Source: Parachryseolinea silvisoli (GTDB lineage: Bacteria > Bacteroidota > Bacteroidia > Cytophagales > Cyclobacteriaceae). Taken from it: 64,000 nt of DNA. The first letter of the stretch is position 1, and each line of letters begins with the position of its first letter. Shown piece after piece: positions 42,528 through 59,426 of the stretch. The stretch is taken from the NCBI RefSeq assembly GCF_021190955.1, contig NZ_JAIOAO010000003.1:186001-250000 (forward strand), written 5' to 3'. The translations under genes were made by a program, and so were the position numbers. A model generated the notes under the pieces. That model was not told where the DNA came from. It saw only the letters and a list, made by a program, of their open reading frames with translations, and did not search any database.

Positions 42528-42601
42528 CGGGGTGTAGCGTAGCCCGGTATCGCGCTTGGTTTGGGACCAAGAGGTCGTCAGTTCGAATCTGGCCACCCCG
42601 A
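42528..42601 (+). tRNA. tRNA-Pro (anticodon TGG)
   Basis: A 74-base tRNA gene. The acceptor stem CGGGGTG (42528-42534) pairs with CACCCCG (42594-42600), with discriminator A at 42601. The anticodon arm is CTTGG-TTTGGGA-CCAAG, giving anticodon TGG for proline, and the T arm contains GTTCGAATC. CCA is not encoded. It has its own promoter and terminator. Its 3' end is the probable attachment site of the island that follows. Confidence 0.97.
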
Positions 42602-42602
42602 C
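42577..42602 (+). other. Probable attachment site (left island boundary) in the tRNA-Pro 3' end
   Basis: The tyrosine recombinase gene starts about 190 bases downstream of this tRNA in the same direction, and everything to the right has island character. Such integrases often use the T-arm and acceptor part of a tRNA gene as the recombination core. No second copy of this segment was found by eye up to base 64,000, so the right boundary is probably outside the window. The core limits are a guess. Confidence 0.4.
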
Positions 42603-42660: not shown

Positions 42661-42793
42661 GTTTTTATACCCTCAAAGAAGCACTTACAAACTCAAGGTT
42701 TCCGTGCCCTATTCTCGCCCTCCTCCGCTTGCGGTATGTTTGGGGCGAGCTAGGAAAAATGATCAACACGCATCATTTCAAACCCACAAAACC

Positions 42794-44065
42794 ATGAGTG
42801 TCTTAAACATTCTCCGTACCCGTTTCTTCATTAAAAAAGACAAAGCCCGTCAGAACCTCGCCCCCTTGTACGTCCGCATCACCCTCCACGGGCAGTCGCT
42901 AGACGTATCGTTGCGCCGCAGTATCGACATCGAAAAGTGGGACACCGACCTGGGCAGAGCCAAAGGCAAACGCGAAGACGTCCGAATCGTCAATGACTAC
43001 CTCGACAATGTTCGCGCCGAGCTCAACCAATGCTGCACCGAGCTGAAACTCCAAAGGAAGCCGGTCACACTCGAAGCTGTGAAAGACCTCTTTTGCGGTA
43101 TCGTCCCTTTGGGCCACACCCTCCTAGGTCTGATGGAGTACCACAACAACAGCCTGAAGCATACACTGGAATGGGGCACCATGAAAAACTATGTTACCAC
43201 CCAGAGCTACGTCAAGCTATTCCTGGAGAGGAAACTAAAGCGAGCCGACATACCGCTGAATGAGCTTACCTATCCGTTCATTATCGACTTTCAGGTGTTC
43301 ATGCTCAATCACCGGCCTACTGACTATCATATTCCGTGCGGGCATAATACAGTCCTGAAACACATCGAGCGCCTCCGCAAGATGATCGCCGTCGGCATCC
43401 GCAACGAATGGATGGAGAAAGACCCCTTCGCCAAATTCCAGGCCCGCTTCATACGGAAAGAGCGCCAGTGCCTCGACAGTGCCGAGCTCGCTGCCATCGA
43501 ACAGAAAGACTTCCAGGTTCCGCGCCTCAACTGGGCCCGAGATCTTTTCGTCTTTAGCTGCTACACCGGTCTTGCGTACTGCGATCTAATGAACCTAAAA
43601 CCCGAGCATATATCCCTGGGCATGGATCGTGGCCAGTGGATCATGACGGCCCGGAAGAAAACCAATCAGCCCCTACGCATACCATTGTTGCCAAAGGCGC
43701 AGGTCATCATCCAGAAGTACCAGGGCGATCCCCGGGCGGCCTTTACCGGCACTGTGTTTGCCGCGTTGTCAAACCAGAAATTAAACTCCTACCTAAAGGA
43801 GATTGCCGACCTGTGCGGTATAAAAAAGAACCTGACGTTTCACTTAGCCCGGCACACCTTCGCCACTACTGTAACGCTAACCAATGGGGTACCCATCGAG
43901 ACAGTATCGAAAATGCTAGGGCATGCCAGCATCCGCACCACGCAGATTTATGCGAAGGTTGTTGAGAAAAAAGTTAGCCAGGATATGGGCGCTCTACGCG
44001 CAGTGCTGGCTGAGCAGTCGAAGAGAGAAGATACTCCGCTAAGGGCGATTGTCGGAAACAACTAG
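42794..44065 (+). CDS. Tyrosine recombinase/integrase, IntDOT-like
   Basis: Site-specific integrase of 423 residues from the ATG at 42794 (MSVLNILRTRFFIKKDKARQ); a longer frame to 42704 has no matching N-terminus. It has the N-terminal arm-binding domain of Bacteroidota integrases, a SAM-like core (GTMKNYVTTQSYVKLFLERK) and the catalytic domain. Catalytic residues seen are His350 and Arg353 (HLARHTFAT), His377 (MLGHASIRTTQ) and the nucleophile Tyr386 (IYAKV). The usual first arginine is replaced by Ala261 in CYTGLAYCDLMNL, a change also found in the CTnDOT integrase group. It presumably moved the island into the adjacent tRNA-Pro. Confidence 0.93.
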   Translation: MSVLNILRTRFFIKKDKARQNLAPLYVRITLHGQSLDVSLRRSIDIEKWDTDLGRAKGKREDVRIVNDYLDNVRAELNQCCTELKLQRKPVTLEAVKDLFCGIVPLGHTLLGLMEYHNNSLKHTLEWGTMKNYVTTQSYVKLFLERKLKRADIPLNELTYPFIIDFQVFMLNHRPTDYHIPCGHNTVLKHIERLRKMIAVGIRNEWMEKDPFAKFQARFIRKERQCLDSAELAAIEQKDFQVPRLNWARDLFVFSCYTGLAYCDLMNLKPEHISLGMDRGQWIMTARKKTNQPLRIPLLPKAQVIIQKYQGDPRAAFTGTVFAALSNQKLNSYLKEIADLCGIKKNLTFHLARHTFATTVTLTNGVPIETVSKMLGHASIRTTQIYAKVVEKKVSQDMGALRAVLAEQSKREDTPLRAIVGNN

Positions 44066-46331: not shown

Positions 46332-47276
46332 CTATCTACTCGCACCAGGTGCAAATGCTACCCCGCACGTATCGCCACCGGCGTCGCCATGCTCGGCCGA
46401 CACCTCCGCCATCCGTGCCGCGTAAACGTCACGCGCTACGACTTGAAGATTCTCCACCCGGGCAACCAGGATGCCGGCCGTCTCCGCCGACACCGTGTAG
46501 CCCTCCTTGTATCGAGCTCGGGCCTGGGCATTCATCAGCACATCAAACAGCGCATCTTCCTCCCGTGTGCTGCCGGGGAACACCATCGTCGCTTTCGCCG
46601 ACACATTGCCCACCAGGTCAAGCAGCTTCCGCAGGTTTCGCGTTGGCGGGTTATACCCGGTCACCATTCGCAGCATCGCCACGCACGTGTATTCTGCAGC
46701 GTGCTGCAGCAGCCCTACGCCAAACACATACTCACCCCTGGCAATGCTATGCTTCGCCTCGCTGATCGCCCGCTGTGCCATCCCAAACCACGCTTCCCAT
46801 TGGGCTACCAGGCGCAGCTGCGTTTCCGCCACATTCACATCGTTCCATGGCGGCACAAACATCTGCTTTGCCTCGGGGCGTTCGTACAGCAGAATGCCGG
46901 CATTGTGAACGTTAGAAAAGAACAGCCCGCCAGTGGCCAGTGCCTGGCTAACAAAGGCCAGCTTATGCACCAGTGCATTCACGTGCAGCGTGGCGCTATT
47001 GAACACCGAAATCAGTTCCACTGCTTCGTCCGGCTTCCGCCGGTCGTCGCTGCGCAGCACCACCAACAAGTCTACCGTCACATGTACTTGCTCTTCATAT
47101 CGGGTTTTGAATATCGACCAGCCCTCGAACTTGTTTGCCCGGCTGCCCAGGCAGAGCACACGCTCAGGTGCCAACGCGGCCACGATCCTTTCCAGCACCA
47201 CGGCAAACTCGCGCATGTCCGTTACCGTCGATTGTCTAGCAGCGCTCCCCATATCCAGCAGATTTACTTTTCTCAC
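46332..47276 (-). CDS. Nucleotidyltransferase (MNT)-HEPN-like protein
   Basis: A 314-residue protein. The first 110 residues look like a minimal nucleotidyltransferase: VVLERIVAALAPERVLCLGS (GS at 44-45), then Asp69 in HVTVDLLVVLRSDDRRKPDE. The second half is helical and HEPN-like (QRAISEAKHSIARGEYVFGV, then LLQHAAEYTCVAMLRMVTGY and NLRKLLDLVGN). MNT-HEPN pairs act as toxin-antitoxin systems in which the MNT part adenylylates the HEPN part; here both are in one chain. The end is Gly-rich. The ATG at 47276 overlaps the preceding gene by 41 bases; an ATG at 47216 would avoid this. It occurs in Bacteroidota mobile elements. Function here is inferred. Confidence 0.65.
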   Translation of the reverse strand: MRKVNLLDMGSAARQSTVTDMREFAVVLERIVAALAPERVLCLGSRANKFEGWSIFKTRYEEQVHVTVDLLVVLRSDDRRKPDEAVELISVFNSATLHVNALVHKLAFVSQALATGGLFFSNVHNAGILLYERPEAKQMFVPPWNDVNVAETQLRLVAQWEAWFGMAQRAISEAKHSIARGEYVFGVGLLQHAAEYTCVAMLRMVTGYNPPTRNLRKLLDLVGNVSAKATMVFPGSTREEDALFDVLMNAQARARYKEGYTVSAETAGILVARVENLQVVARDVYAARMAEVSAEHGDAGGDTCGVAFAPGASR

Positions 47277-47667
47277 GTGAAGATTTAGATGTACGCAACG
47301 TCGGCCAGTCTTTTCTTACAACTTCAAACGCTTGATAAAACTGCGCGGCCAACCGGCGGCTATTGCTTAAGTCATCGTTCACTTTCTGTCCATACTCGCA
47401 CAGCGTCATGATAAACCAGTCCATTCCCTCGTGGGGTACTTTTAAAATGTCGATAGTTTCGTCGAAAAATTTATTGAAGCGTTTCTGTAGCGCCTCATTG
47501 TTCTCGACAAATACTGCATACTCTTTGGATCGACTCGAGCGCGGTCGGTCCTTTTTAAGCAGCTGCATCCGGCGGCTCGTCTTAAGAACCTCTTCGATTA
47601 GATAAAGCGGGGTCTGCCTGTCGGCGGCTTTGCCGACAGCGGGTGATTTTGCATCTCTTGATGGCAT
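47236..47667 (-). CDS. Hypothetical protein upstream of the MNT-HEPN-like gene
   Basis: A 143-residue soluble protein, rich in Lys, Arg and Glu, without signal or membrane segment. The middle is helical (RRMQLLKKDRPRSSRSKEYA; NNEALQKRFNKFFDETIDIL; MDWFIMTLCEYGQKVNDDLS; RRLAAQFYQAFEVVRKDWPT), with disordered ends (SPAVGKAADRQTP, SKSSREKSKSAGYGERC). I recognise no family. It overlaps the start of the MNT-HEPN-like gene by 41 bases on the same strand and may be its partner. It is the first gene of a three-gene minus-strand operon ending with the SymE-like gene. Confidence 0.6.
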   Translation of the reverse strand: MPSRDAKSPAVGKAADRQTPLYLIEEVLKTSRRMQLLKKDRPRSSRSKEYAVFVENNEALQKRFNKFFDETIDILKVPHEGMDWFIMTLCEYGQKVNDDLSNSRRLAAQFYQAFEVVRKDWPTLRTSKSSREKSKSAGYGERC

Positions 47668-48003
47668 GTTTTTGCGGGTTATTTGTTTACATAAATTCTA
47701 ACATCTGTGTTTCTAACTAGCTCACTAACCACATTTTAGCCCTTCGGTAGACAGCCGGTGGATAGTCGCCGGCAACGGCCCGTCTGCCTGTCAGGGATCA
47801 GATTCTTGAGCAACCAACTTGCAAGGGTATGCGCGCACATGGCCCTAGTTCAAAATTGAAAATTAGGGGGTAAGTACTGTATATCTCAGACGATTGTCGT
47901 GCGCTTTAGTAATGCCACGTTTGCTTTAGCAATAGCTATACATTTCCCAAAAAATCATTATGAAAAACCGCTCAGAAGAACGCGAAAATGATATATTTGT
48001 ATC
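47668..48003. other. Divergent intergenic region before the XRE regulator
   Basis: About 335 bases between the minus-strand hypothetical gene and the XRE gene on the plus strand. No gene or RNA was recognised. It should hold promoters of both directions; only the -7 box of the XRE gene at its right end was found. The left part is A+T rich around 47,670-47,740. Confidence 0.5.
47992..47999 (+). promoter_or_regulatory. Candidate -7 box of the XRE regulator gene
   Basis: TATATTTG matches TAnnTTTG exactly and lies 4 bases before the ATG at 48004. If used, transcription would start at or next to the ATG, giving a leaderless message. No TTTG element stands at the expected 19-base distance. The box sits in GATATATTTGTATC, whose ends GATA/TATC form a small inverted repeat that could be an operator. 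Confidence 0.4.
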
Positions 48004-48486
48004 ATGTCAGATTCGAAAGAAACATACAAATCCAAGACCGTCCATCACGGCAAAAACCTGAAACGGTTCCGTGAAATGTTAGGCCTTAAGCAAGAAGCAT
48101 TCGTTGATAGACTTGGGGGCGATTGGACCCAACGACGAATTTCGTACCTCGAGGGCAAAGAAGTTATTGAGCCTGCTCAGATCGAGGAGTTAGCCAAGGC
48201 ACTCAACCTGCCGGCAGAAGCAATTTTAGAATTTGATGAAGAAAAAGCTGTGTACAATATCCAGAATAACTACGAAGGAGCAAACATCCATTCGCAAAAT
48301 AGCCAAAGTCCATACTATCAGTTTGGCGGTGACAATACTACAAACTCATTAGATAAGATTACCGAGTTAGTCGAAAAGAATGACGTGTTGATTGCAGAGA
48401 CTAAACGGCTATATGAAGAACTTTTGAAAGCCGAGCGAGATAAGATTGCGTTACTCGAGAAGCTTCTCAACGAGAAATCAAAATAA
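48004..48486 (+). CDS. XRE-family transcriptional regulator with C-terminal coiled coil
   Basis: A 160-residue regulator. The HTH_3 domain occupies residues 12-75 (HHGKNLKRFREMLGLKQEAF, then VDRLGGDWTQRRISYLEGKE, EPAQIEELAKALNLPAEAIL). A glutamine- and asparagine-rich linker (NIQNNYEGANIHSQNSQSPY) leads to a coiled coil (DKITELVEKNDVLIAETKRL, YEELLKAERDKIALLEKLLN) that probably makes dimers. Such proteins are common regulators in Bacteroidota mobile elements and may keep the replication module to the right repressed. It has its own terminator, so it is a single-gene message. Confidence 0.87.
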   Translation: MSDSKETYKSKTVHHGKNLKRFREMLGLKQEAFVDRLGGDWTQRRISYLEGKEVIEPAQIEELAKALNLPAEAILEFDEEKAVYNIQNNYEGANIHSQNSQSPYYQFGGDNTTNSLDKITELVEKNDVLIAETKRLYEELLKAERDKIALLEKLLNEKSK

Positions 48487-48492
48487 TCATCC

Positions 48493-48518
48493 GCCACCGA
48501 AAGGTGGCTTTTTTATTT
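48493..48518 (+). terminator. Terminator of the XRE regulator gene
   Basis: A GCCACC/GGTGGC stem (48493-48498 with 48503-48508) capped by a GAAA tetraloop and followed by six T, A and more T. It lies 6 bases after the stop codon. Confidence 0.88.
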
Positions 48519-48784
48519 TCCGATAAGGCCGATTTGCCTGGTATTTCTGAAATTTCCCTCAAATATAGATCATGTCTATAATCGATAGCTGTTAATAGAA
48601 AAAGATCATATTTCAAATACTCACTAATAGTCTCAAATTCATTACCCTGTCACTACACGTTGAACGAGTTTGAGTATATATAGATCTATTTGATAAAGCG
48701 CCACTCAAATGGCATCAAACGGTGCTTGGTATTTAGTTGATTCGTTTGCTTCATTTGCCTCTGTCAAAACCAACAAACAGATTT
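48519..48784. repeat. A+T-rich control region with repeated TCAAAT words and palindromes
   Basis: About 265 bases with no gene. TCAAAT occurs at 48559, 48613, 48633 and 48705, and its complement ATTTGA at 48688. TATAGA-N5-TCTATA forms an inverted repeat at 48564-48580, and ATAGATCTAT at 48680-48689 is a perfect palindrome. The stretch separates the XRE gene from the replication genes. It may hold operators for the XRE or AlpA-like protein and the promoter of the module. Confidence 0.5.
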
Positions 48785-49117
48785 ATGGCAACAGCAAACA
48801 TCGTTACTGTGGAGGATCTTGAAGCTTTCAAAGAAAGACTGCTTCAGGATATTTCCGACATTCTCTCACAACGCAAAGGCGCACCCATGCGCGAATGGCT
48901 AAAGTCCAGCGAAGTCCGTCGCATACTGATGATCTCACCCAACACACTGCAGATGCTTCGCGTAAAAGGCAAACTACCATTCACCAAGATCGGCGGCGTA
49001 TTCTATTATGCCTATAAAGACATCGCCAAGATGCTCGAAGAAAACAAAACCCAACCACCCGACGACCTCGCCACTCTCCTCGACAACGGCCCTGCTAAAG
49101 CGCGTAAGAGATCATGA
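48785..49117 (+). CDS. AlpA/excisionase-like helix-turn-helix protein
   Basis: A 110-residue DNA-binding protein from the ATG at 48785 (MATANIVTVEDLEAFKERLL); the frame open to 48737 has an unrelated leader. The N-terminal helix is followed by a MerR-like winged HTH (MREWLKSSEVRRILMISPNT, then LQMLRVKGKLPFTKIGGVFY, YAYKDIAKMLEENK). This HTH_17 type is common in integrative elements of Bacteroidota, where it acts as excision or transcription factor. Its stop overlaps the ATG of the initiator gene by 4 bases (ATGA), so the two are coupled. It is the first gene of the replication module. The role as AlpA or excisionase is inferred from family and place. Confidence 0.83.
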   Translation: MATANIVTVEDLEAFKERLLQDISDILSQRKGAPMREWLKSSEVRRILMISPNTLQMLRVKGKLPFTKIGGVFYYAYKDIAKMLEENKTQPPDDLATLLDNGPAKARKRS

Positions 49118-50097
49118 ACTACATCCTGCATCTCAACACCTGGATGGGCAACTTTGGCGATGACCAGCGGCTCAGAATGCAACACTACGCCCTATACATG
49201 GCCCTCTTCTTCGAGTGGAACCAAGCCCGCTTTCGCACCCCGATCATGATCAAGCGAGCCGAGGTCATGCGTAACGCCGGCATCGGCTCGGTCAACTTCT
49301 ACATTCGCACCATTAAAGAACTTTCCGAGTGGGGATACATCTGCTACGAACCATCATTCCACCCTGCCAAGGGCAGCAGTGTCCACATGCGCAGATTCGA
49401 TACTGGTGGCGATAAAGCTGACGATAATGGTAACGGCCAGGCTGACGACAATGGTTGCGATAATGACACTAACAACGGCGTCGAAAGCAATAGTGTTCGC
49501 GATAAGGGTGGCGGTAATGGTGCCGGCAATGCCAGCGATTATGGTCACAGCAACGCTACCGATAACGGTATCATAACCGATCAAGGTGGTGACAAAGGTG
49601 GTGGTAATGGTCGCGGTAATGCTGGCGATAACGCCCGAGAGACGTTATATATAAACAATACAAACAGTACAAATAATGCAAACAGTATAAACGGTTTAAA
49701 CGAGTATGGCACAAGCAATGAAAATTCAAATTTTGTTAACGATCGGGTCGCGGACGCGAACCCGCAGGCAACTGGTACCGGTAATCATCATCGACAAAAA
49801 CAAACAGCCGGGGCTGGGGGGCGCGGCGGCCGCGAAACCGCCTCGACCCCGAGCGCGATCCAGGAAGCCCAGGAATACTTCACCGAGCAACTCTCCACTG
49901 CCGCCGAAGCCGAAAAATTCTTCGACCACTACCAGGCCGTCGGCTGGGTAATCGGCCGAGCGCCCATCAAAGACTGGCGGGCCGCAGCCCGCAAATGGAT
50001 CAAAAACGCTAAAAACTTTAACCATGCAAACAACAACACCCAACCAATTCCCGGCCCTCTCAACACTGGCCCAAAAAGCTACTCAAAGCCATTCTAA
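49114..50097 (+). CDS. Phage-type replication initiator with an internal repeat linker
   Basis: A 327-residue protein in three parts. Residues 1-95 form a winged-helix domain (RLRMQHYALYMALFFEWNQA, TPIMIKRAEVMRNAGIGSVN, FYIRTIKELSEWGYICYEPS). Residues 97-240 are a low-complexity linker of Gly, Asp and Asn (DKGGGNGAGNASDYG, DKGGGNGRGNAGDNA). Residues 245-300 resemble the C-terminal domain of phage replisome organisers (AQEYFTEQLSTAAEAEKFFD, HYQAVGWVIGRAPIKDWRAA, ARKWIKN), which recruits the helicase loader. The downstream gene is a DnaC-like loader that overlaps it by 74 bases. The gene probably starts replication of the excised element. The linker codes by repeats in the DNA, treated separately. 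Confidence 0.75.
   Translation: MNYILHLNTWMGNFGDDQRLRMQHYALYMALFFEWNQARFRTPIMIKRAEVMRNAGIGSVNFYIRTIKELSEWGYICYEPSFHPAKGSSVHMRRFDTGGDKADDNGNGQADDNGCDNDTNNGVESNSVRDKGGGNGAGNASDYGHSNATDNGIITDQGGDKGGGNGRGNAGDNARETLYINNTNSTNNANSINGLNEYGTSNENSNFVNDRVADANPQATGTGNHHRQKQTAGAGGRGGRETASTPSAIQEAQEYFTEQLSTAAEAEKFFDHYQAVGWVIGRAPIKDWRAAARKWIKNAKNFNHANNNTQPIPGPLNTGPKSYSKPF
49405..49740. repeat. Imperfect DNA repeats and A+T-rich stretch inside the initiator gene (possible origin)
   Basis: Two 41-base near copies begin at 49501 and 49591, 90 bases apart (core GGTGGnGGTAATGG). Two adjacent 24-base near copies begin at 49418 and 49441 or so (GCTGACGAnAATGGT). Directly after them the otherwise G+C-rich gene turns A+T rich at 49641-49740, with AAACAGTA twice (49662, 49680) and the palindrome GTTTAAAC (49694-49701). 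Iterons followed by an A+T-rich unwinding stretch within an initiator gene is the layout of the phage lambda origin in gene O. Origin function is inferred. Confidence 0.45.
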
Positions 50098-50776
50098 GCC
50101 CTCACCGGTTACCGGCACATCCCCGAATGCGAAACCCACCACCACAAGCGACACGCCTCACATTGCCGGGTACGACTTCACCTGGCTCATCCAGCAAGTC
50201 GAGCGCCTTGGCCAAAAACAGTTCGGTCCCAAATTCACCATACGCCCGGCTGACTACCCGGTAGTCCGCCACCTCCTGGTATACTTCCTCCAAGATACCC
50301 TCCAGGCCGATCTCTTAGGCATCAACCTCGAAAAAGGCATTGCCCTCACTGGCCCCATCGGCTGCGGCAAAACCACCCTCATGAGCCTGATGCGCCGCGT
50401 TCCAGGCCCCGACTACAGCTTCGTCCTCAAGGCCACCCGCGACATCTCCTTCGACTTCCAGCATGAAGGCTACGATATCATCCACCGCTACAGCCGCCAG
50501 TCGTACGACCTCCGCAAAGGTCCTAAAACCTACTGCTTCGACGACCTCGGGTCCGAGCAAGCCCTGAAACACTTCGGCAACCAATGCAACGTCATGGCCG
50601 AAATCATCCTCTCGCGCTATGACCGCTTCGTCTCCGAGGGCATGCTCACCCACATCACTACCAACCTCTCCACCGACGAGATCGAGACCATGTACGGCCC
50701 CCGTGTCCGAAGCCGCATGCGCGAAATGTTCAACCTCATCTCGTTCGATGACTTGCATAAAGATCAACGACAGTAG
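50024..50776 (+). CDS. DnaC-like helicase-loader ATPase
   Basis: A 250-residue AAA+ ATPase. A disordered Thr/Ser/Pro-rich leader (1-45) precedes the ATPase domain: DFTWLIQQVERLGQKQFGPK, Walker A GPIGCGKTT near residues 109-117, Walker B TYCFDDLG near 168-175, sensor THITTNLST near 208-216, and the arginine motif YGPRVRSRMREMFNLISFDD. The last motif is typical of DnaC/IstB-type loaders. Such proteins load the replicative helicase on an origin together with an initiator. It overlaps the initiator gene by 74 bases in another frame; a start inside the overlap (ATG at 50024) is the only good one. The pair acts in replication of the element. Confidence 0.83.
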   Translation: MQTTTPNQFPALSTLAQKATQSHSKPSPVTGTSPNAKPTTTSDTPHIAGYDFTWLIQQVERLGQKQFGPKFTIRPADYPVVRHLLVYFLQDTLQADLLGINLEKGIALTGPIGCGKTTLMSLMRRVPGPDYSFVLKATRDISFDFQHEGYDIIHRYSRQSYDLRKGPKTYCFDDLGSEQALKHFGNQCNVMAEIILSRYDRFVSEGMLTHITTNLSTDEIETMYGPRVRSRMREMFNLISFDDLHKDQRQ

Positions 50777-51100
50777 GCAAACCTTTCTATCCACATGAAT
50801 CCAGCGCTCTCCCGACAGGAGGGCGCTGCCACATGGGTGCCGGCCGGCAACTGGCCCACGAAGGACTATTTTCGCAGTCTTCAACGCGTTACACAGCTCC
50901 GGAGCCGCCGAAACGGCCAGGTTAGAAGGAAAAAGTCGCATTTTCTAAAGATTTTCAATCCTCTAACGCCGGTTGTCAAGTTAACCGACCTAAAAACTTG
51001 TCCATCTTAAACTATGCCATTATCTTTATCGTTAATAGGAGGAGGTGTAGTAGCACAGAGGTTACTGGCAGCACCTGTTTCTAACAAACGTCATAGCAAC
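50777..51100. other. Gap with a strong hairpin before the AbiE pair
   Basis: About 320 bases. An 11-bp stem with one G-T pair lies at 50802-50812 and 50818-50828 around a 5-base loop, 25 bases after the loader gene. It may end the replication message, though no T run follows. A 71-codon frame (50795-51010) across it is not supported. The right part holds the promoter of the AbiEi-like gene. Confidence 0.5.
50998..51028 (+). promoter_or_regulatory. Promoter of the AbiEi/AbiEii operon
   Basis: TTG at 50998-51000 and TATCTTTA at 51021-51028 stand 20 bases apart. The second box differs from TAnnTTTG only in the last base. The start of transcription would be near 51,035, which supports the ATG at 51101 and excludes the upstream frame start at 51014. 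Confidence 0.5.
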
Positions 51101-51829
51101 ATGTCTACCATAGCACAGTTAGTCAGAGATAGAATCGACAAACTCGATCCGGGAGCGGTGTTCGATTACGACACGTTAAAACTAAGTGCGTCCGAAGTCG
51201 GGTCGGTAGCCCAATCTTTGAGCCGGCTAAGAAGCGAAGGCGTGATTGAGCGCCTGGAGAAAGGCAAATACTACAAACCTAAAAAGTCTGCCTATGGCAG
51301 AATCCGGCCGAGCGAAAACGAGATCATCCAGCTCTTTACTCGAAAGAATAATAAATGGATCGGCTACCTAACCGGGCTGCTGGTATACAATAAATTAGGG
51401 CTGACCACTCAAGTATCAAACACGTTGGTTATCGCTACGCCCAATCCCAAGGAGCCTAAAGAACTCGATGGGTATAAGATCCGCTTTGTAAAAAGCAACG
51501 CTGACATTCGTGAGCAGGATATTCCTTTGCTACAACTATTAGATGCTTTTCAAGATATTAGCTCAATCCCCGATTCGTCACCGGATGAATCGTTGAAAGT
51601 TTTACGGCGAAAAATCAATGCACTCAACGATGCTGAAAAGAAACGCCTTCCGCGCTTAGTAAAGGACTACCGGCCAAGAACACGCGCCCTGCTGGGAGCT
51701 TTTCTGGAATGTTTTTTTGATGGTATAGCGACTACTGATCTGAAGAAAAATCTAAATAAGCTTTCTACATTTGAGCTAGGAGTTTCCGAAAAAGCACTTC
51801 CAAACAAAAGCTCCTGGAATATCAAATGA
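51101..51829 (+). CDS. AbiEi-like antitoxin (DUF6088 family)
   Basis: A 242-residue protein from the ATG at 51101 (MSTIAQLVRDRIDKLDPGAV). The N-terminal winged helix-turn-helix (FDYDTLKLSASEVGSVAQSL, SRLRSEGVIERLEKGKYYKP) is the AbiEi-like DNA-binding head of the DUF6088 group. The middle (NNKWIGYLTGLLVYNKLGLT, TQVSNTLVIATPN) and a helical C-terminal part follow. In AbiE systems the antitoxin represses its own operon and the toxin acts on tRNA or nucleotides. The next gene overlaps by ATGA (4 bases), the normal arrangement of such pairs. An earlier ATG at 51014 adds 29 residues and lies upstream of the inferred transcript start. Confidence 0.85.
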   Translation: MSTIAQLVRDRIDKLDPGAVFDYDTLKLSASEVGSVAQSLSRLRSEGVIERLEKGKYYKPKKSAYGRIRPSENEIIQLFTRKNNKWIGYLTGLLVYNKLGLTTQVSNTLVIATPNPKEPKELDGYKIRFVKSNADIREQDIPLLQLLDAFQDISSIPDSSPDESLKVLRRKINALNDAEKKRLPRLVKDYRPRTRALLGAFLECFFDGIATTDLKKNLNKLSTFELGVSEKALPNKSSWNIK

Positions 51830-52782
51830 CCTTCCATACCGCACCTGATTTCAAAGAGGCCGTAGAAGCCGCCGCCACCCATTATAAGCTCAGAGAAATT
51901 TTCATCGAGAAAGACTATTGGGTTACCCGTGTATTAAAAAACCTGGCGGAATCGCAATATGCCGACCACGTTGTATTTAAAGGTGGTACAGCGCTATCAA
52001 AAGCACATGGTTGCATCGAGCGGTTTTCCGAAGACATAGACCTGGCCATACTCAAACAGCCAGGAATCAGCGATGCAAAATTAAAGGCACTCATCAAAGA
52101 GGTGGAAACTTCCGTCACTGCCGGCCTTACATACTTTGCGCATCCGTCAGAACAGAAACGAGGCAGGAATAGAAAGACCTTCTATCAGTATGATAAAAAG
52201 ATTGGCGCCGAAGACTTCGGCGCCGTAAAAGATCACATCCAGTTAGAGATAAATGCCTTCACGCAGCCCGTGCCGCACGAGAAGAAAGAGATTATCTCCA
52301 TGCTCGGCAAGTTTCTTTCTCCGGGCTTTAGCGACCAGGTGAAACAATACGGGCTGGAGCCCTTCACCATCAACGTACTCACCCGCGAACGGACTTTCTT
52401 CGAAAAGTTACTTTCAGTCGTCCGGCTTTCTCACGATAGCCAGGCTCAGGTCTTGGGCAAACTCCGACATTTCTATGACATGTACCAAATTTTGCAACAG
52501 CAAGATTTACGCGGTCTGGTACTTGTAGATGAAAGCTTTGCATTACTTGACATGGTTCGTGACGACGACGAGGGAAATGGCACCTTCGCCGGTCCGTGGC
52601 TCCAGCTGCCCATGGCCGAGTCGCCGCTGTTCGCAGATCATGTAACCTATTGGAGCGGTCTGACTCCCCAATATGTCAGTGAACTTTCCGAACTATCATG
52701 GTCGGAAATTCCTGCGCCCGGCGACGTTGAACGAATGCTTGGTGAAATCAAGGAATTCCTCCAGCGCTATGATCGTCGTTAG
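51826..52782 (+). CDS. AbiEii/AbiGii-like nucleotidyltransferase toxin
   Basis: A 318-residue nucleotidyltransferase toxin. The family core is complete: FIEKDYWVTRVLKNLAESQY, then VVFKGGTALSKAHGCIERFS (GGTALS) and EDIDLAI, the aspartate pair that binds metal. Lys and Asp residues of motifs III and IV (HIQLEINAF) follow, then the helical half (LSVVRLSHDSQAQVLGKLRH, FYDMYQILQQQDLRGLVLVD). AbiEii proteins add nucleotides to tRNA or other acceptors and stop growth upon phage infection. It is coupled to its antitoxin by a 4-base overlap. It ends 46 bases before hsdM. Confidence 0.92.
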   Translation: MTFHTAPDFKEAVEAAATHYKLREIFIEKDYWVTRVLKNLAESQYADHVVFKGGTALSKAHGCIERFSEDIDLAILKQPGISDAKLKALIKEVETSVTAGLTYFAHPSEQKRGRNRKTFYQYDKKIGAEDFGAVKDHIQLEINAFTQPVPHEKKEIISMLGKFLSPGFSDQVKQYGLEPFTINVLTRERTFFEKLLSVVRLSHDSQAQVLGKLRHFYDMYQILQQQDLRGLVLVDESFALLDMVRDDDEGNGTFAGPWLQLPMAESPLFADHVTYWSGLTPQYVSELSELSWSEIPAPGDVERMLGEIKEFLQRYDRR

Positions 52783-52828
52783 TAGTAAAATAAAATATCA
52801 ATACAAATAAAAGTAGATAGACCTAAGA

Positions 52829-55252
52829 ATGGCCATTAAGAAAAGTGAACTTTACAGCAGCCTGTGGGAAAGTTGTAACCAGCTAAGAGGAGGAATGGAC
52901 GCCAGTCAATACAAGGACTATGTATTGGCGATGCTGTTCATTAAGTATGTCAGCGATAAATACGCCAACACTCCGTTCGCGCCCATTACCATACCAAAAG
53001 GCTCCACGTTCCAGGACATGGTAAAGCTGAAGGGCAAACCCGAAATCGGCGACTTCATCAACAAAAAAATCTTTGCGCCCATCCGCGATGCGAACAAGAT
53101 GAGTGATTTCGCCAACTTCAACGACGATGAAAAGCTCGGCACCGGCAAAGACAAGATAGATAAACTCACCAAGCTCATTGCCATCTTCGAAAACCCCGAC
53201 CTTGACTTCTCCAAGAACAGGGCCGACGATGACGACATCCTCGGCGATGCATATGAATTCCTGATGCGCCACTTCGCCACAGACTCCGGTAAGTCCAAGG
53301 GGCAATTCTATACACCAGCGGAAGTAAGTCGTATCTTGGCCAAGATCATCGGCATCAACAAGAGCAACTCCACCGCCAGCACAACGATTTACGATCCAAC
53401 CTGTGGTTCGGGCTCGCTGCTTATTAGGGCAGGCGAAGAGGCTGAGAAGGCGATAACCCTCTACGGCCAGGAAATGGACATTGCCACAGTCGCGTTGGCC
53501 AGCATGAACATGGTGTTACATAACCAGGCACAAAACCTGCACGGCATCCGCCAAGGCAATACCATTGCGGATCCAAAGTTCATTAAAAAAGCGGGCACTG
53601 ACGAGATGCTCGAAACCTTTGACTATGCCGTGGCGAATCCCCCGTTCTCGTTCGCCAGTTGGACCAACGGTCTGATAGATGACAAAACGAAGGCTGTAGT
53701 AGATAGGTACAATCGCTTTGCCGGCTTTGGCATCCCTCCAGAAAAGAATGGTGATTATGCCTTTCTGCTGCACATCATCAAGTCGCTTAAGTCAAAAGGT
53801 AAGGGGGGTATAATCCTTCCCCATGGCGTTTTATTCCGTGGCGGCGCCGAAGGTGAAATACGCAAGAAACTCATCACGAAGGGATACATCAAAGGCATTA
53901 TCGGCCTGCCACCCAACCTGTTCTACGGAACGGGCATTCCCGCCTGTATCATAGTGATCGACAAAGAAAACGTCGAAAAACGTAAAGGCATTTTCATCAT
54001 AGACGCAAGTAAAGAATACATGAAAGACGGGAACAAAAACCGCCTTCGCGAACAAGATATCCACAAAATCGTAGATGTATTCAATAAGCAGCTGGAACTA
54101 GCCAAGTACAGCCGCATGGTTTCGCTCGCGGAAATCGCCGACCCGAAGAATGATTACAACCTGAATATCCCGCGCTACATCGACAACCAGGAAGCGGAGG
54201 ATATTCACGACATCGAAGCACATTTATTGGGTGACATTCCCAATGCCGACATCGATGCTCTGGCTAAATACTGGGAAGTATACCCTACCTTGCGGAAGGA
54301 TCTATTCTCTACCAGCAAGCGCAAGAAGTACAGTAAACTAAAGGTTACTAAAGAAGAAATCAATAACACGATATTTAATCATCCCGAGTTCTTGAATTTT
54401 ATAAAAGAGCTCGATAAACTCTTCAACACCTGGCGAAAGAGGAGTACGAAGCAGCTCAAGGAACTAAAGAAGGGCTTTAAGCCTCGGCAGGTCATCAACG
54501 AAATATCCGAAGACCTGTTGAAAATCTATTCCAGTGAAGGTCTGGTCGATAAATACGACGTCTACCAGCATTTGATGACCTACTGGAATAGCACCATGCA
54601 AGACGACTGCTATCTCATCGCCGCAAATGGATGGAAGGCCGATCTATATAATATCAATAAAGGCAAGAAGGAAGTGATATTGGATAGCGATTTAGTGCCG
54701 AAGACACTGGTAATTGATCGCTTCTTTAAGGCCGACAAGAAGGCCATCGACGCCATGGAAGCAAAAAGGGAGGCACTAACCAGCGAAATTGAGGAACTTA
54801 CAGACGAGTACTCTGGCGAAGAAGGATTCTTTTCTATGATGGATAAAGTCAATAGAATAATCGTATCTAAACGCCTTAAGGAGATCAAGAATGACAAAAA
54901 AAGCATTGACGAAATAAAAGCTTTGGAAGGTTGGCTGAGACTAGCAGATGAGCAAACTGCCGTCAAAAAAGAAATAGAAACGGCCGCTCTTCAGCTAAGC
55001 GATAGAGTAACTGAACGTTATAAAACTCTCGCGGAAGATGATGTGAAAATTCTGGTTGTAGATTACAAATGGATGGCTGAGATTGAAAGGAGGATGAATG
55101 AGGAAATGGATCAGGTAAGTGAAACTATTACGCTACGAATCACACAGCTCGCAGAGCGCTATGAATTGCCGTTACCACAGCAAAACGCGGAAGTTCTTGC
55201 ACTGGAAAGAAAAGTGAATACTCACCTTAAGAAAATGGGATTTGCATGGTGA
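52829..55252 (+). CDS. hsdM: Type I restriction-modification methyltransferase subunit HsdM
   Basis: DNA N6-adenine methyltransferase subunit of 807 residues. The N-terminal domain (SELYSSLWESCNQLRGGMDA, SQYKDYVLAMLFIKYVSDKY) and catalytic core are standard: DAYEFLMRHFATDSGKSKGQ, FYTPAEVSRIL, motif I DPTCGSGSLL near residues 189-198, and motif IV NPPFSFASW near 270. The core normally ends near 500; here about 300 more residues follow, the last part being a charged coiled coil (VNRIIVSKRLKEIKNDKKSI; TAVKKEIETAALQLSDRVTE). Long forms of this kind occur in Bacteroidota. It begins the operon hsdM-hsdS-hsdR-sprT; the hsdS start overlaps its stop by 7 bases. Confidence 0.95.
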   Translation: MAIKKSELYSSLWESCNQLRGGMDASQYKDYVLAMLFIKYVSDKYANTPFAPITIPKGSTFQDMVKLKGKPEIGDFINKKIFAPIRDANKMSDFANFNDDEKLGTGKDKIDKLTKLIAIFENPDLDFSKNRADDDDILGDAYEFLMRHFATDSGKSKGQFYTPAEVSRILAKIIGINKSNSTASTTIYDPTCGSGSLLIRAGEEAEKAITLYGQEMDIATVALASMNMVLHNQAQNLHGIRQGNTIADPKFIKKAGTDEMLETFDYAVANPPFSFASWTNGLIDDKTKAVVDRYNRFAGFGIPPEKNGDYAFLLHIIKSLKSKGKGGIILPHGVLFRGGAEGEIRKKLITKGYIKGIIGLPPNLFYGTGIPACIIVIDKENVEKRKGIFIIDASKEYMKDGNKNRLREQDIHKIVDVFNKQLELAKYSRMVSLAEIADPKNDYNLNIPRYIDNQEAEDIHDIEAHLLGDIPNADIDALAKYWEVYPTLRKDLFSTSKRKKYSKLKVTKEEINNTIFNHPEFLNFIKELDKLFNTWRKRSTKQLKELKKGFKPRQVINEISEDLLKIYSSEGLVDKYDVYQHLMTYWNSTMQDDCYLIAANGWKADLYNINKGKKEVILDSDLVPKTLVIDRFFKADKKAIDAMEAKREALTSEIEELTDEYSGEEGFFSMMDKVNRIIVSKRLKEIKNDKKSIDEIKALEGWLRLADEQTAVKKEIETAALQLSDRVTERYKTLAEDDVKILVVDYKWMAEIERRMNEEMDQVSETITLRITQLAERYELPLPQQNAEVLALERKVNTHLKKMGFAW

Positions 55253-56379
55253 TACAAAACAAAAATAAAGCTACCGATGCAGGTATAATACCCGTCGACT
55301 GGAATGTATTAACGATACGAGAGGCTTTTGATATTTTCAATACTCTGAGATTTCCGATTAGTGAGGATATACGAAAAAAAATGCCGGGTATTTATCCATA
55401 TTATGGACCAACGAAAATTCAGGATTACATTAATGAGTATCGGGTTGAGGGTGAATATGCTCTAATTGGAGAAGATGGCGATCACTTCCTAAAGTGGAGG
55501 GAAATGCCGATGACTCAATTAGCACGAGGTAAATTTAATGTCAATAATCACGCTCATTTAATAAAAGGAAGAGAAGGTATTACGATCACCCAATGGTTTT
55601 ACCATTATTTCAAAAACAAAGACATTTCACAATTTTTGACTCGCCAAGGCGCAAGTCGATACAAGCTATCGAAAGGAACTTTGGTCAACATTCCTTGTGC
55701 AATTCCACCAACCCTCCAAGAACAAGCCGCCATAGCCACCGCCCTCTCCGACACCGATGCCCTCATCAGCAGTTTAGAAAAACTCATCGCCAAAAAACGC
55801 AACATCAAACAAGGCGCCATGCAAGAGTTGCTTACGCCTAAAGGAGGGTGGGAGATGAGAAGATTAGGAGATATCTCAGAAATATACACTGGAAAAAAAA
55901 ATAACCAAGATAAAGTTGATGGTGGTAATTATCCTTTTTTTGTTCGTTCTCAAAACATTGAAAGGATTAACACATACAGCTATGATGGTGAGGCAATACT
56001 AATCCCTGGCGAAGGCGGCATCGGAAATATTTTTCATTATTTTAATGGTAGGTTTGATTTTCATCAGAGAGTTTACAAGATCAGTGACTTTCGAGAGGGT
56101 TATTCAGTCAAATATATCTACAGGTTTATGTGCGAAAACTTTGGACGACACGCGATGCAAAACTCCGTTAAAGCTACAGTGGATTCGCTAAGACTACCAA
56201 CCTTGCAGAACTTCAAAGTTCTAATACCCCCTACGATTGGTGATCAAATAAAGATATCTGCTATCTTAGGAGACTTCGATTCCGAAATAGCATTGTTAGA
56301 ATCGAAGCAGAAGAAATACCAGGAAATCAAATCCGGCATGATGCAGAACCTCCTTACCGGCAAGATAAGACTACTATGA
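55246..56379 (+). CDS. hsdS: Type I restriction-modification specificity subunit HsdS
   Basis: DNA-recognition subunit of 377 residues with two target-recognition domains. TRD1 (about 1-160) and TRD2 (about 200-350) are each followed by a conserved helical spacer: ALSDTDALISSLEKLIAKKR, then NIKQGAMQELL; and ILGDFDSEIALLESKQKKYQ, then EIKSGMMQNLLTGKIRLL. TRD1 contains YPYYGPTKIQDYINEYRVEG and YALIGEDGDHFL; TRD2 contains ISEIYTGKKN and ILIPGEGGIGNIFHYFNGRF. The recognition site cannot be predicted by eye. The TRD regions are more A+T rich than hsdM and hsdR, a usual mark of domain exchange. It overlaps both neighbours by 4 to 7 bases. Confidence 0.94.
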   Translation: MVIQNKNKATDAGIIPVDWNVLTIREAFDIFNTLRFPISEDIRKKMPGIYPYYGPTKIQDYINEYRVEGEYALIGEDGDHFLKWREMPMTQLARGKFNVNNHAHLIKGREGITITQWFYHYFKNKDISQFLTRQGASRYKLSKGTLVNIPCAIPPTLQEQAAIATALSDTDALISSLEKLIAKKRNIKQGAMQELLTPKGGWEMRRLGDISEIYTGKKNNQDKVDGGNYPFFVRSQNIERINTYSYDGEAILIPGEGGIGNIFHYFNGRFDFHQRVYKISDFREGYSVKYIYRFMCENFGRHAMQNSVKATVDSLRLPTLQNFKVLIPPTIGDQIKISAILGDFDSEIALLESKQKKYQEIKSGMMQNLLTGKIRLL

Positions 56380-59300
56380 ACAGCGAGCGCATAACCCAAA
56401 ACCGTATAGTTAAACTATTCCAACAAGAGTTGGGTTATGCGCTCCTCTTCGAGGGAAATCTGCACGATCGCGCAGGCAATAGCAATATTGAAGAAATCCC
56501 ATTAACATTATTTCTCCAAAAACAAGGCTACTCCAAAGAGCACATCTCAAAGGCGGTCGACAAACTCCACAACGAAGCAAACAATCACCAACGCGACCTG
56601 TATTTCAACAACATGTCTGTATACGATTTGCTTCATTACGGTGTATCTGTAAAAATGGGGACAGCCAAGCAGACCGATGCGATTTGGCTGATCGATTGGA
56701 AGAATCCGCTTAACAATGACTTTTATATTGCCGAAGAGGTCACCATAAAAGGTATCCATGACAAAAGACCGGACGTAGTATTATATGTAAACGGCATTGC
56801 CCTCGCCGTCATCGAGCTCAAAAAAAGCAGCAAAGACATTGGCGAAGGCATTCGGCAGAACCTGACCAACCAGCAGACGGAGTTTATCCAGGATTTCTTC
56901 AGCACAATCCAGTTCTGTTTTGCCGGCAGTGACAGCGAAGGCTTGCGCTATGGCACCATCGAGACCAGCGCCAAATACTATCTCACGTGGCGTGAAGATG
57001 AACAGCTATACGAGCCCGAGCTGCTGGACAAATATTTAAAAAAGATCTGTAGCAAAGAGCGCTTTCTCGAAATCATACACGACTTTGTTCTGTTCGACGA
57101 CGGGCGAAAGAAGCTGCCGCGCTACCACCAATATTTCGGTATCAAAGCCGCCCAGCAGCACGTACTCCGGAAAGAAAGCGGTATCATCTGGCACACACAA
57201 GGCTCTGGAAAAAGCATCACCATGGTCCTGTTGGCCAAATGGATTTTGGCCAACAACCCGGATGCCCGTATTGCCATCATTACAGACCGCACCGAACTGG
57301 ACGCTCAGATCAAGAAGGTGTTTTCCAATACCGGCGAGAAGACGATGGAACGCGCCAAAAGTGGTGAAGATCTGATGCACAAGCTCAGTCAGCCCTCCCC
57401 GCGACTGATCTGCAGCCTCGTTCACAAGTTTGGCAAAAGCAAAGACAAGCAATTCGATGAGTTCATTAAGGAGATAGAGAACAATCGACCAAATGTAAAA
57501 GGAGAACTGTTTGTGTTTGTCGATGAGTGCCACCGCACACAAAGCGGAAGGCTTCACAACGTCATGAAAGCCATTTTGCCCAACGCTGTATTCATCGGCT
57601 TCACTGGCACGCCGCTTTTAAAGCAGGATAAACAAACAAGCCTGGAGGTGTTCGGCAAATACATTCACACCTACAAATTCAACGAAGCTGTGGAAGACAA
57701 GGTCGTACTTGATCTTGTCTATGAAGCCCGCGACATTGACCAGAGAATAAGCTCACAAGACCACATCGACCTTTGGTTTGATGCTAAGACGAAGGGGCTA
57801 AACGACTTCCAACGGGCCGAGCTAAAGAAGAAATGGGGCACCATGCAGAAGGTGCTCAGTTCCAAAAGCAGGATGGGCAAGGTCGTGAACGATATCATCC
57901 TCGACTTTAGCGTCAAGCCCCGCCTGAACGACGACAGAGGCACCGCCATCCTGGTTGCCGGCAGCATTTACGAAGCATGTCAATATTATGAGTTGTTTCA
58001 GCTCACGCACTTAAAAAGCAAATGTGGCATCATCACCAGCTACAATCCTAGCACCCGGCATGTCGTAAACGAGGAGCTTGGTGAAAACACTGAAACCGAA
58101 AAGCAGGCCGTTTATAACATCTACACAAAGATCCTCGGCAAAAGAGCCACCGAAGAATACGAAGAGGAAACAAAGGACTTGTTCATCAAGCACCCCGCAA
58201 AGATGAAATTGCTGATCGTTGTCTCAAGGCTACTCACCGGTTTCGATGCGCCAAGTTGCACGTACCTCTACATCGATAAGTCCATGCAGGACCACGGTCT
58301 GTTTCAAGCCATTTGCCGCGTCAATCGCCTGGATACGGACGACAAAGAACTTGGCTATATCGTCGATTACAAAGATTTGTTTAAAAACCTGGTAAACGAT
58401 AAAGGCACCGGAGCCATCCAGGTGTACACCTCCGAGCTCGCCTATGACCAGTTCAAGAAGGAAGATTGCGACATCCTGCTGCAGTCACGGCTGGAAAAAG
58501 CCCGTGAGCGGCTCGACACCGCGCTTGAGCAGTTGGAGTTAATTTGCGAGCCTGTTGCTAATCCCAAAGACGATGCCGCGTACCGCTATTACTTCTGCGG
58601 CAATACCGAGCTTCCGGAAGACCTCAAAGAGCGTGAGTTCTTACGACAGGAATTGTATAAGAAAACCGTCGCCTTCATCCGAGCTTACGCCAACCTGGCC
58701 GACGAAATGGAAGCAGCAGGATACAACGCCCACGAAATCCAGCACATCGACAACCGGCTTAAATTCTACATCGATCTACGCGAAGCCATAAAAAATGCCA
58801 GCGGCGAAAAACTCGACATGAAGGATTACGAGGCCGACATGCGTCACCTCATAGACAACTACCTGCACGCAGACGAACCGAGACAGATTTCCGAGTTTGA
58901 GAGCCTGTCGCTGTTGGAAATCATCACCAAGCTTGGGCTCGAAAAGGCCAAAGAGACCCTTCCGGAAGCGATCACTGCCGACCCGGCGGCGATGGCAGAA
59001 ACAATTGAGAATAATGTACGCACCAAAATTGTAAAGGAACATCTGACAGATCCCGTATTTTTCGAAAAAATGAGTCTCCTGCTCTCGGAGATCATCAAGC
59101 AAAGAAAAGCCAAGGCGATCGACTACGAAGAATACCTCAAGCAGATTGCCGCCCTTGCCAAGCAAGTGCAAGAAGGTAAAACTTCCGACACGCCGAGGGA
59201 ACTTGATAGCCCGGCCAAAGTAGTGTTATACCACTATTTTGACCAGGATGTTGAAAAGGCCCTGATGGTCCACGACGTCGTCGTGGAATATGCGCCGTCG

Positions 59301-59426
59301 GGCTGGAAGGGTGACAGCGCCAAAGAAAACAAGATCAAAGAAGTGATCTACAAAAAGCTAAACGACTTCGACGAAACCGTAAAAGTGTTTGACGTGATTA
59401 AGGAGCAGGGGGAATACTTAAAGTAG
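56376..59426 (+). CDS. hsdR: Type I restriction endonuclease/translocase subunit HsdR
   Basis: Motor and nuclease subunit of 1,016 residues. N-terminal PD-(D/E)xK nuclease: RPDVVLYVNGIALAVIELKK, residues about 131-150. The superfamily-2 helicase follows, with Walker A HTQGSGKSITMVLLAKWIL near 275, DEAD-like VDECHRTQSG near 381, GFTGTPLL, and motif VI-type VVSRLLTGFDAPSCTYLYID and FQAICRVNRL. The C-terminal part is helical. With HsdM and HsdS it cuts unmodified DNA after ATP-driven translocation. It overlaps hsdS by 4 bases and is 2 bases before the SprT-like gene. All landmarks are intact, so the system is probably active. Confidence 0.95.
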   Translation: MNSERITQNRIVKLFQQELGYALLFEGNLHDRAGNSNIEEIPLTLFLQKQGYSKEHISKAVDKLHNEANNHQRDLYFNNMSVYDLLHYGVSVKMGTAKQTDAIWLIDWKNPLNNDFYIAEEVTIKGIHDKRPDVVLYVNGIALAVIELKKSSKDIGEGIRQNLTNQQTEFIQDFFSTIQFCFAGSDSEGLRYGTIETSAKYYLTWREDEQLYEPELLDKYLKKICSKERFLEIIHDFVLFDDGRKKLPRYHQYFGIKAAQQHVLRKESGIIWHTQGSGKSITMVLLAKWILANNPDARIAIITDRTELDAQIKKVFSNTGEKTMERAKSGEDLMHKLSQPSPRLICSLVHKFGKSKDKQFDEFIKEIENNRPNVKGELFVFVDECHRTQSGRLHNVMKAILPNAVFIGFTGTPLLKQDKQTSLEVFGKYIHTYKFNEAVEDKVVLDLVYEARDIDQRISSQDHIDLWFDAKTKGLNDFQRAELKKKWGTMQKVLSSKSRMGKVVNDIILDFSVKPRLNDDRGTAILVAGSIYEACQYYELFQLTHLKSKCGIITSYNPSTRHVVNEELGENTETEKQAVYNIYTKILGKRATEEYEEETKDLFIKHPAKMKLLIVVSRLLTGFDAPSCTYLYIDKSMQDHGLFQAICRVNRLDTDDKELGYIVDYKDLFKNLVNDKGTGAIQVYTSELAYDQFKKEDCDILLQSRLEKARERLDTALEQLELICEPVANPKDDAAYRYYFCGNTELPEDLKEREFLRQELYKKTVAFIRAYANLADEMEAAGYNAHEIQHIDNRLKFYIDLREAIKNASGEKLDMKDYEADMRHLIDNYLHADEPRQISEFESLSLLEIITKLGLEKAKETLPEAITADPAAMAETIENNVRTKIVKEHLTDPVFFEKMSLLLSEIIKQRKAKAIDYEEYLKQIAALAKQVQEGKTSDTPRELDSPAKVVLYHYFDQDVEKALMVHDVVVEYAPSGWKGDSAKENKIKEVIYKKLNDFDETVKVFDVIKEQGEYLK

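Follow-up and report, generated by a model that had tools for sequence, protein, structure and literature searches.

The window, by which we mean the whole 64,000-nt stretch of Parachryseolinea silvisoli contig NZ_JAIOAO010000003.1 that was analysed, carries an HTH_17 protein gene, an initiator gene and a helicase loader gene in succession on the forward strand (Table 1). The initiator ORF encodes 327 aa and starts inside the end of the HTH_17 gene, whose own start was placed by choice at an ATG, the listed ORF beginning with the TTG at 48737. The loader ORF overlaps the initiator by 74 nt when its first ATG is assumed as the start, in agreement with an earlier note on this DNA that had described the loader gene as following and overlapping the initiator.

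The window's initiator had no match in Pfam; in PHROGs it matched two families without known function and, at a weak E of 0.019, a third named replication initiation protein. AlphaFold2 modelled the head with a confident winged-helix-like order of elements, in which we assigned residues about 60–72 as the probable recognition helix. Pfam HTH_36 was detected weakly in 22 of the 76 homologous heads introduced below and not in the window's own head, and the tails of the family gave nothing useful in Pfam. NCBIfam contained no match for the four initiators tried or for the Freya protein (see below), and a search of the PDB revealed no convincing sequence relatives of the head and tail domains, the PDB matches of the loader being generic ATPases. 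The C-terminal domain, together with its terminal YxxP motif, is presumed to contact the loader or the helicase.

Table 1 Features of the initiator locus and of the island in the window
Feature	Position	Strand	Basis
Putative attL, last 13 bp of tRNA-Pro gene	42590–42602	+	Same 13-mer at L037 5917–5929
Tyrosine integrase of the island	42704–44065	+	Pfam Phage_integrase, 6.6e-18
HTH repressor-like regulator	48004–48486	+	Pfam HTH_19/HTH_31 below cut-off; PHROG regulators
HTH_17 protein (excisionase-like), first cassette gene	48785–49117	+	Pfam/PHROG; homologue upstream in 69 of 76
Initiator gene	49114–50097	+	ORF and homologue searches
N-terminal winged-helix-like domain	49114–49413	+	AlphaFold2, mean pLDDT 92.1
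Putative iterons: array of imperfect direct repeats of ~12 bp (GATAAxGGTxxC-like), translated as Gly/Asp/Asn linker	about 49398–49640	+	Self-comparison, TRF, redraws
Putative DNA unwinding element: A+T-rich tract with an AAAC-type core roughly every 9 nt	49646–49737	+	Composition, redraws, family codons
Conserved core WTAAACAATAYAAAC	49651–49665	+	Motif across homologues
C-terminal domain (EAEKFFxYY...GW...DWKAAxRxW) and terminal YxxP motif	49864–50094	+	Sequence motifs
AAA+ DnaC-like helicase loader	50024–50776	+	phrog_50, 2.4e-14; homologue downstream in 76 of 76

The 13-mer of the putative attL recurs outside the window (contig C7:255917–255929), and this repeat of the tRNA-Pro 3' end likely bounds an island of ~27.3 kb, which extends beyond the end of the window. 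The 13-bp repeat suggests that the island may excise. Comparison with six same-genus relatives for an empty site matched only the tRNA or up to ~143 bp around it, and none of the six loci compared revealed the right flank of the island. By reading of the ORFs, the cargo includes a type I restriction system (52829–59426); an AbiEii-type toxin gene (51826–52782), a HEPN protein (46332–47276), and HNH and DUF6119 proteins are also carried. The segment at L037 4126–5294 encodes a DUF5675 protein and a second protein (254 aa) that has no match in Pfam, and since homologues of these occur in three paralogous islands and in a Marivirga plasmid, the two look like core genes of this type of element.

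Homologous initiators and their gene neighbours

The genome of P. silvisoli itself contains four paralogous initiator loci, and initiator matches were present in 26 of the 118 family genomes searched, this one included. In one paralogue (L004/L006, G000:C8:448365–449234), the head-domain coding sequence is interrupted by an in-frame TAG. Scanning of GTDB contigs revealed 325 relatives, the best 80 of which were kept; these and 15 of the first 36 loci made up 95 proteins, and 76 homologues remained for comparison once rows that shared at least 90% identity or were shorter than 200 aa had been dropped. Those left out of the first 36 were re-fetches of genes already in the set (L002, L008, L035), the internal-stop paralogue (L004, L006), short initiators (L009, L016, L017, L034), and twelve head-only or tail-only loci (L022–L033), seven of which were examined separately. 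Named records account for 66 of the 76, and all 66 are labelled Bacteroidota on the head-domain tree; one of the best 80 relatives, outside the 76, is a Clostridiales MAG (L080).

The loader homologue found downstream of every initiator starts between −144 and +362 nt from the initiator end in 75 loci and at +1045 in the remaining one. Among the seven loci without a detected HTH_17 homologue upstream, L115 and L118 have almost no upstream sequence. A tyrosine recombinase was located within the fetched stretch at 32 of the 76 loci, and at 27 of the 50 whose stretch is at least 10 kb. Linker length varied widely across the family, from 60 to 173 aa.

Repeats and an A+T-rich tract in the initiator linker

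Self-comparison of the linker DNA recovered both repeat pairs that the earlier note had pointed out. The two 41-base near copies 90 bases apart, at 49499 and 49589, are identical at 32 of 41 positions, compared with 22 of 41 for the best 41-base pair at this spacing elsewhere in the window, and the two adjacent 24-base near copies, at 49398 and 49422, are identical at 17 of 24, with TRF reporting 2.8 copies of 24 at 49398–49463. Units of about 12 bp describe the array better than units of 41 and 24 bases. When the protein was held fixed and the codons were redrawn, the in-frame self-match score of the window linker (46) greatly exceeded the null mean (26.9) and was reached in none of 60 redraws; its out-of-frame repeats showed no excess (5 vs 6.3 in the null). 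Every repeat of the window linker lies in frame, so the window alone cannot fully separate an effect on DNA from an effect on protein.

Analysis of the family revealed in-frame self-similarity above the synonymous redraws in 36 of the 76 linkers, but not in the other 40, and out-of-frame self-similarity above them in 25, but not in 51 (p 0.05 or less, 60 draws per linker; about four expected by chance). Exact repeats of at least 7 nt, counted over the family, peaked at offsets of 11, 12, 22, 23, 24, 33, 34, 36, 45, 46, and 48 bp and were scarce (0 to 15 positions each, all linkers together) at 5–10, 13, 25–30, and 37–40 bp; this spectrum looks like helical phasing, and the peak offsets (11/12, 22–24, and 33–36 bp) occurred across homologues in all three reading frames. 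The linker of Breznakibacter xylanolyticus (L045) contains five 23-bp copies read in frames 1, 0, 2, 1, and 0, that of L076 has repeats spaced by 12, 23, 11, 23, 11, 23, and 23 bp, and ACAAGCACTG is present in 11 loci, again in all three frames. Helically spaced out-of-frame repeats were detected in 30 of 76 linkers vs 41 of 1131 control stretches. Taken across the family, these patterns argue that the repeats act as DNA and not only as protein.

In the 71 of 76 linkers with flanks of at least 60 nt on both sides of the A+T-rich tract, in-frame repeats were located upstream of the tract in 57 and downstream in 20, and out-of-frame repeats upstream in 29 and downstream in 15; the upstream location is a tendency, not a rule. 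Linkers such as those of L106, L117, and L120 contain GTTCAAAAAATGAAC-like dyad repeats, which may represent a third iteron type. The sequence TTCAAAAAATGA was seen in L106 and L117, and two 10-mers linked to the dyad repeats, GTTCAAAAAA and AAAAATGAAC, occurred in 9 and 19 loci, respectively.

The G+C content of the tract (49648–49737, 90 nt) is 26.7%, against a window mean of 50%, and is equally low in 0.2% of 90-base stretches. The direct repeats and the palindrome ascribed to this stretch by the earlier note are both in place, AAACAGTA occurring twice in the window (49662 and 49680) and the palindrome GTTTAAAC once (49694). Synonymous redraws of the window linker gave a mean of 3.0 mismatches to the A+T motif, vs none in the actual sequence, and a lowest 45-nt G+C of 0.42 vs 0.20; neither actual value was reached in 200 redraws.

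The conserved core WTAAACAATAYAAAC was present within 3 mismatches in 73 of the 76 linkers, with a mean of 1.09 mismatches vs 3.33 in synonymous redraws (p 0.05 or less in 61 of 76). At no more than one mismatch, it was found in 55 of 76 linkers vs 0 of 377 stretches taken as controls from ORFs at these loci. The best match was in another reading frame in 7 of 76, only L074 and L076 being within 2 mismatches, and the minimum G+C fell below the synonymous null (p 0.05 or less) in only 35 of 76.

Because the DNA consensus had come from the same data, the motif was placed a second time from an amino-acid pattern alone ([ILTV]N[NST][TIS]N within the linker), which located it in 48 of 76 linkers overall and in 39 of 66 hold-out loci. 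The consensus was derived from the first loci and the codons were counted in the later-fetched 66 of the 76 only; the protein pattern was written after the hold-out proteins were known. The hold-out motifs revealed a nearly invariant codon choice, with AAC at Asn1 in 39 of 39 and at Asn5 in 38 of 39, and, at the third position, AAT in all 27 cases of Asn and AGT or ACT in all 12 cases of Ser or Thr. The first position was ATA in 33, TTA in 3, and ACA in 3, and the fourth was ACA in 22, ATA in 15, and TCA in 2. Outside the linkers, the same genes contain 623 AAC vs 619 AAT codons for Asn. This codon usage argues that the A+T-rich tract is conserved as DNA. The expectation that the repeats and the A+T-rich block would be kept at the DNA level while the protein sequence of the linker drifts was thus borne out in most of the 76 homologues.

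Association of repeat type and tract with the head domain

We found ACAAG-type repeats in 35 of 48 linkers with His at the recognition-helix residue after the conserved Tyr and GATAA-type repeats in none of these, whereas with Thr or Ile at this place the GATAA type was present in 11 of 18 and the ACAAG type in 1; 26 of the 76 linkers, which fit neither type or both, are unclassed for repeat type. Counted the other way, 35 of the 37 ACAAG-type rows have His, and the other two are at Ile and Leu. Mapping of the repeat class on the head-domain tree required 3 changes vs 10.1 when shuffled. Repeat type is co-inherited with the head domain, and relatedness accounts for part of this. The repeats recur as DNA across the family, as the earlier note had foreseen for the repeat unit, but they do not share one sequence and fall into types that go with the head.

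Among partial relatives, the tract followed the head and not the tail. Of 68 viral genes with the C-domain only, none contained the tract at one mismatch or fewer and one did at 2. In the phage pair L136/L137, the head and the tract (2 mismatches) are joined to another tail. L138, the third viral gene with the head, had no tract match under 4 mismatches, and the motif was also lacking in nine viral relatives whose match to the head is weak. At the stand-alone head loci L022, L023, L025, L028, and L029, no loader was detected and no tract was found at 2 mismatches or fewer. The proteins of these five loci are ~100 aa long, with an HTH_17 homologue nearby in three of the five, and L032 is a sixth stand-alone head-domain locus.

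The layout, in whole or in part, also occurs outside integrated islands. Plasmid p1 of Marivirga sp. BKB1-2 is reported as a separate plasmid contig (PMC11225308). On this circular molecule of 25,320 bp are genes for an HTH protein, an initiator that has both the repeats and the tract, and a homologue of the loader (an ORF of 175 aa in the p1 record vs 250 aa in the window), as well as for an integrase, the DUF5675 protein, and the partner protein known from the far end of the window's island. The isolated phage Freya_1 carries the head, GATAATAGTAGT-like repeats, and an A+T-rich TAAAC-type stretch with a different tail.

A search that started from DNA, with CCTTNTATAAACAATAYAAAC as the pattern, yielded two exact matches in 395 class genomes, vs none for the reversed control pattern, and one exact match in viral contigs. 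Each of the three falls within an initiator of this kind that is followed by a loader; since one may come from the same species as L045, the matches are only partly independent of the family set. The window's own tract starts differently and does not match CCTTNTATAAACAATAYAAAC.

The linker as a candidate replication origin

We interpret the initiator linker as the replication origin of the integrated island, and we put the probability of this reading, with the mechanism proposed for it as a whole, at roughly 0.85. The anatomy, the DNA-level selection on repeats and tract, the co-inheritance of repeat type and head, and the occurrence on a natural plasmid and, for head, repeats, and A+T stretch, in a phage were computed here. 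As judged from the sequences, copies of the N-terminal winged-helix domain would bind the helically phased repeats as iterons, and the initiator–repeat complex would open the adjacent A+T-rich tract. The C-terminal domain and the loader encoded downstream would then load the replicative helicase of the host onto the unwound DNA and the origin would fire, the circle excised through the tyrosine integrase and the tRNA-Pro att site replicating by itself.

In phage lambda, the head of O is the DNA-binding part, and P is the helicase loader. The lambda origin, composed of iterons and an A+T tract, sits in the middle of gene O (PMC7466680), and the order of iterons, A+T tract, C-domain, and loader noticed earlier in the window agrees with this and with the lambda annotation. 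The two systems share a DNA-binding head, mid-gene iterons, an A+T tract, a C-terminal part, and an overlapping next replication gene; by anatomy only, the window thus has what a lambdoid O/P module has, origin-like iterons and an A+T tract inside the initiator gene. The annotated lambda iterons start at spacings of 20, 24, and 23 bp, of which only 24 is a multiple of 3, and in our repeat test lambda O gave 15 out-of-frame repeats vs 6.8 in the null (0 of 200 redraws) and 10 vs 6.7 in frame. No homology to lambda O/P was detected: hhalign gave probabilities of 0.4% for the head and 0.2% for the tail against O, with one lambda sequence as template, so that very remote homology is possible, and BLASTP of the loader against P gave an E of 6.0. 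Unlike lambda, the system has a DnaC-like loader (PHROG), repeats phased at ~11–12 bp and multiples, and a tract of the sequence WTAAACAATAYAAAC. By analogy we predict that it works like orilambda; the comparison by homology does not place it in the same family.

Iteron plasmid origins have an A+T-rich opening region beside direct repeats. The linker likewise has direct repeats with an adjacent A+T-rich tract. It differs from the iteron origins (PMC4980987) in that the origin would lie within the coding sequence of its own initiator and in that the initiator has no Pfam match. Phage-inducible chromosomal islands combine an integrase, regulators, a replication module, and defence cargo. In the comparison with these elements (PMC6092414), the integrated island has the same components, its defence cargo being likely. 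No overlaid origin of this kind in Bacteroidota was among the top open-licence PMC matches listed, and prior publication is still possible.

Another explanation is that the DNA elements are functional without being the origin, serving as an operator in autoregulation, in copy-number control or partition, or as a conserved seam at which initiator domains are swapped, with the origin elsewhere in the element. Heads are found joined through the linker to various tails (in phage Freya, L136/L137, and the short forms), and a further A+T-rich intergenic stretch lies at 48550–48700; both observations fit this explanation, which we nevertheless consider unlikely, because iterons, A+T tract, and loader follow the lambda order and the tract is missing, at the thresholds given above, from the five stand-alone head loci and the 68 viral C-domain-only genes. 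The stretches 47660–48010, 48480–48790, 50770–51130, and 52780–52830 also contain no repeat arrays, a single pair of 12-nt matches at a distance of 188 being all that was seen; elsewhere in the island, arrays were searched by TRF only, and an origin in the four intergenic stretches was rejected on this ground. A low-complexity disordered linker grown by slippage, with no DNA function, would suit the in-frame repeats and Gly/Asp/Asn-rich composition in the window and the wide range of linker lengths, but is highly improbable and, as the sole explanation, rejected on the codon and frame tests, given the near-invariant synonymous codons at the tract, the reading of one DNA unit in three frames with helical, not codon, spacing in relatives, and the control stretches (motif and out-of-frame repeats).

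A broader proposal goes beyond the linker as origin of this island, namely that it belongs to a phylum-wide replicon type of islands, plasmids, and phages in Bacteroidota, with the origin overprinted on the initiator linker, a co-evolving specificity code between iteron and recognition helix and a new, nearly invariant unwinding element with TAAAC-type cores every 9 nt, independent of lambda and arisen again with a different head (L024/L027); to this we give even odds. With the sequence signature, the origin could be narrowed to a few hundred bp in many mobile elements of Bacteroidota, among them islands whose cargo is likely defensive. The linker would also be a second example, apparently unrelated to the lambda one, of an initiator coding sequence that contains an origin. 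Natural variation in iteron and recognition helix makes initiator–origin specificity testable, and minimal replicons for laboratory work in Bacteroidota could follow.

Four short initiators (L009, L016, L017, L034) consist of a head, a short linker, and a terminal YxEPL-like motif, with no full C-domain, and are followed by a loader. Repeats of 12 bp are retained in L009 together with a related A+T stretch, and L017 also has an A+T stretch; neither contains the motif at 2 mismatches. The earlier note had held that initiators with the same partners and a linker devoid of repeats and A+T-rich DNA would speak against an origin; most homologues are not of this kind, but L016 and L034, from one genome, are, keeping the head, the terminal motif, HTH_17, and the loader with neither repeats nor tract. 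The layout is thus usual, not universal. The origin of the short-initiator loci may lie elsewhere, and the genome of L016 and L034 holds a third initiator match.

Two further initiator-like proteins, L024 and L027, have a different head and the same C-domain, and their otherwise different linkers share an identical 42-nt A+T-rich string. A search of 395 class genomes that allowed up to 3 mismatches yielded no match to this string; its conservation between the two loci suggests a second type of overprinted origin. The L024 and L027 proteins are identical at 143 of 296 aligned residues.
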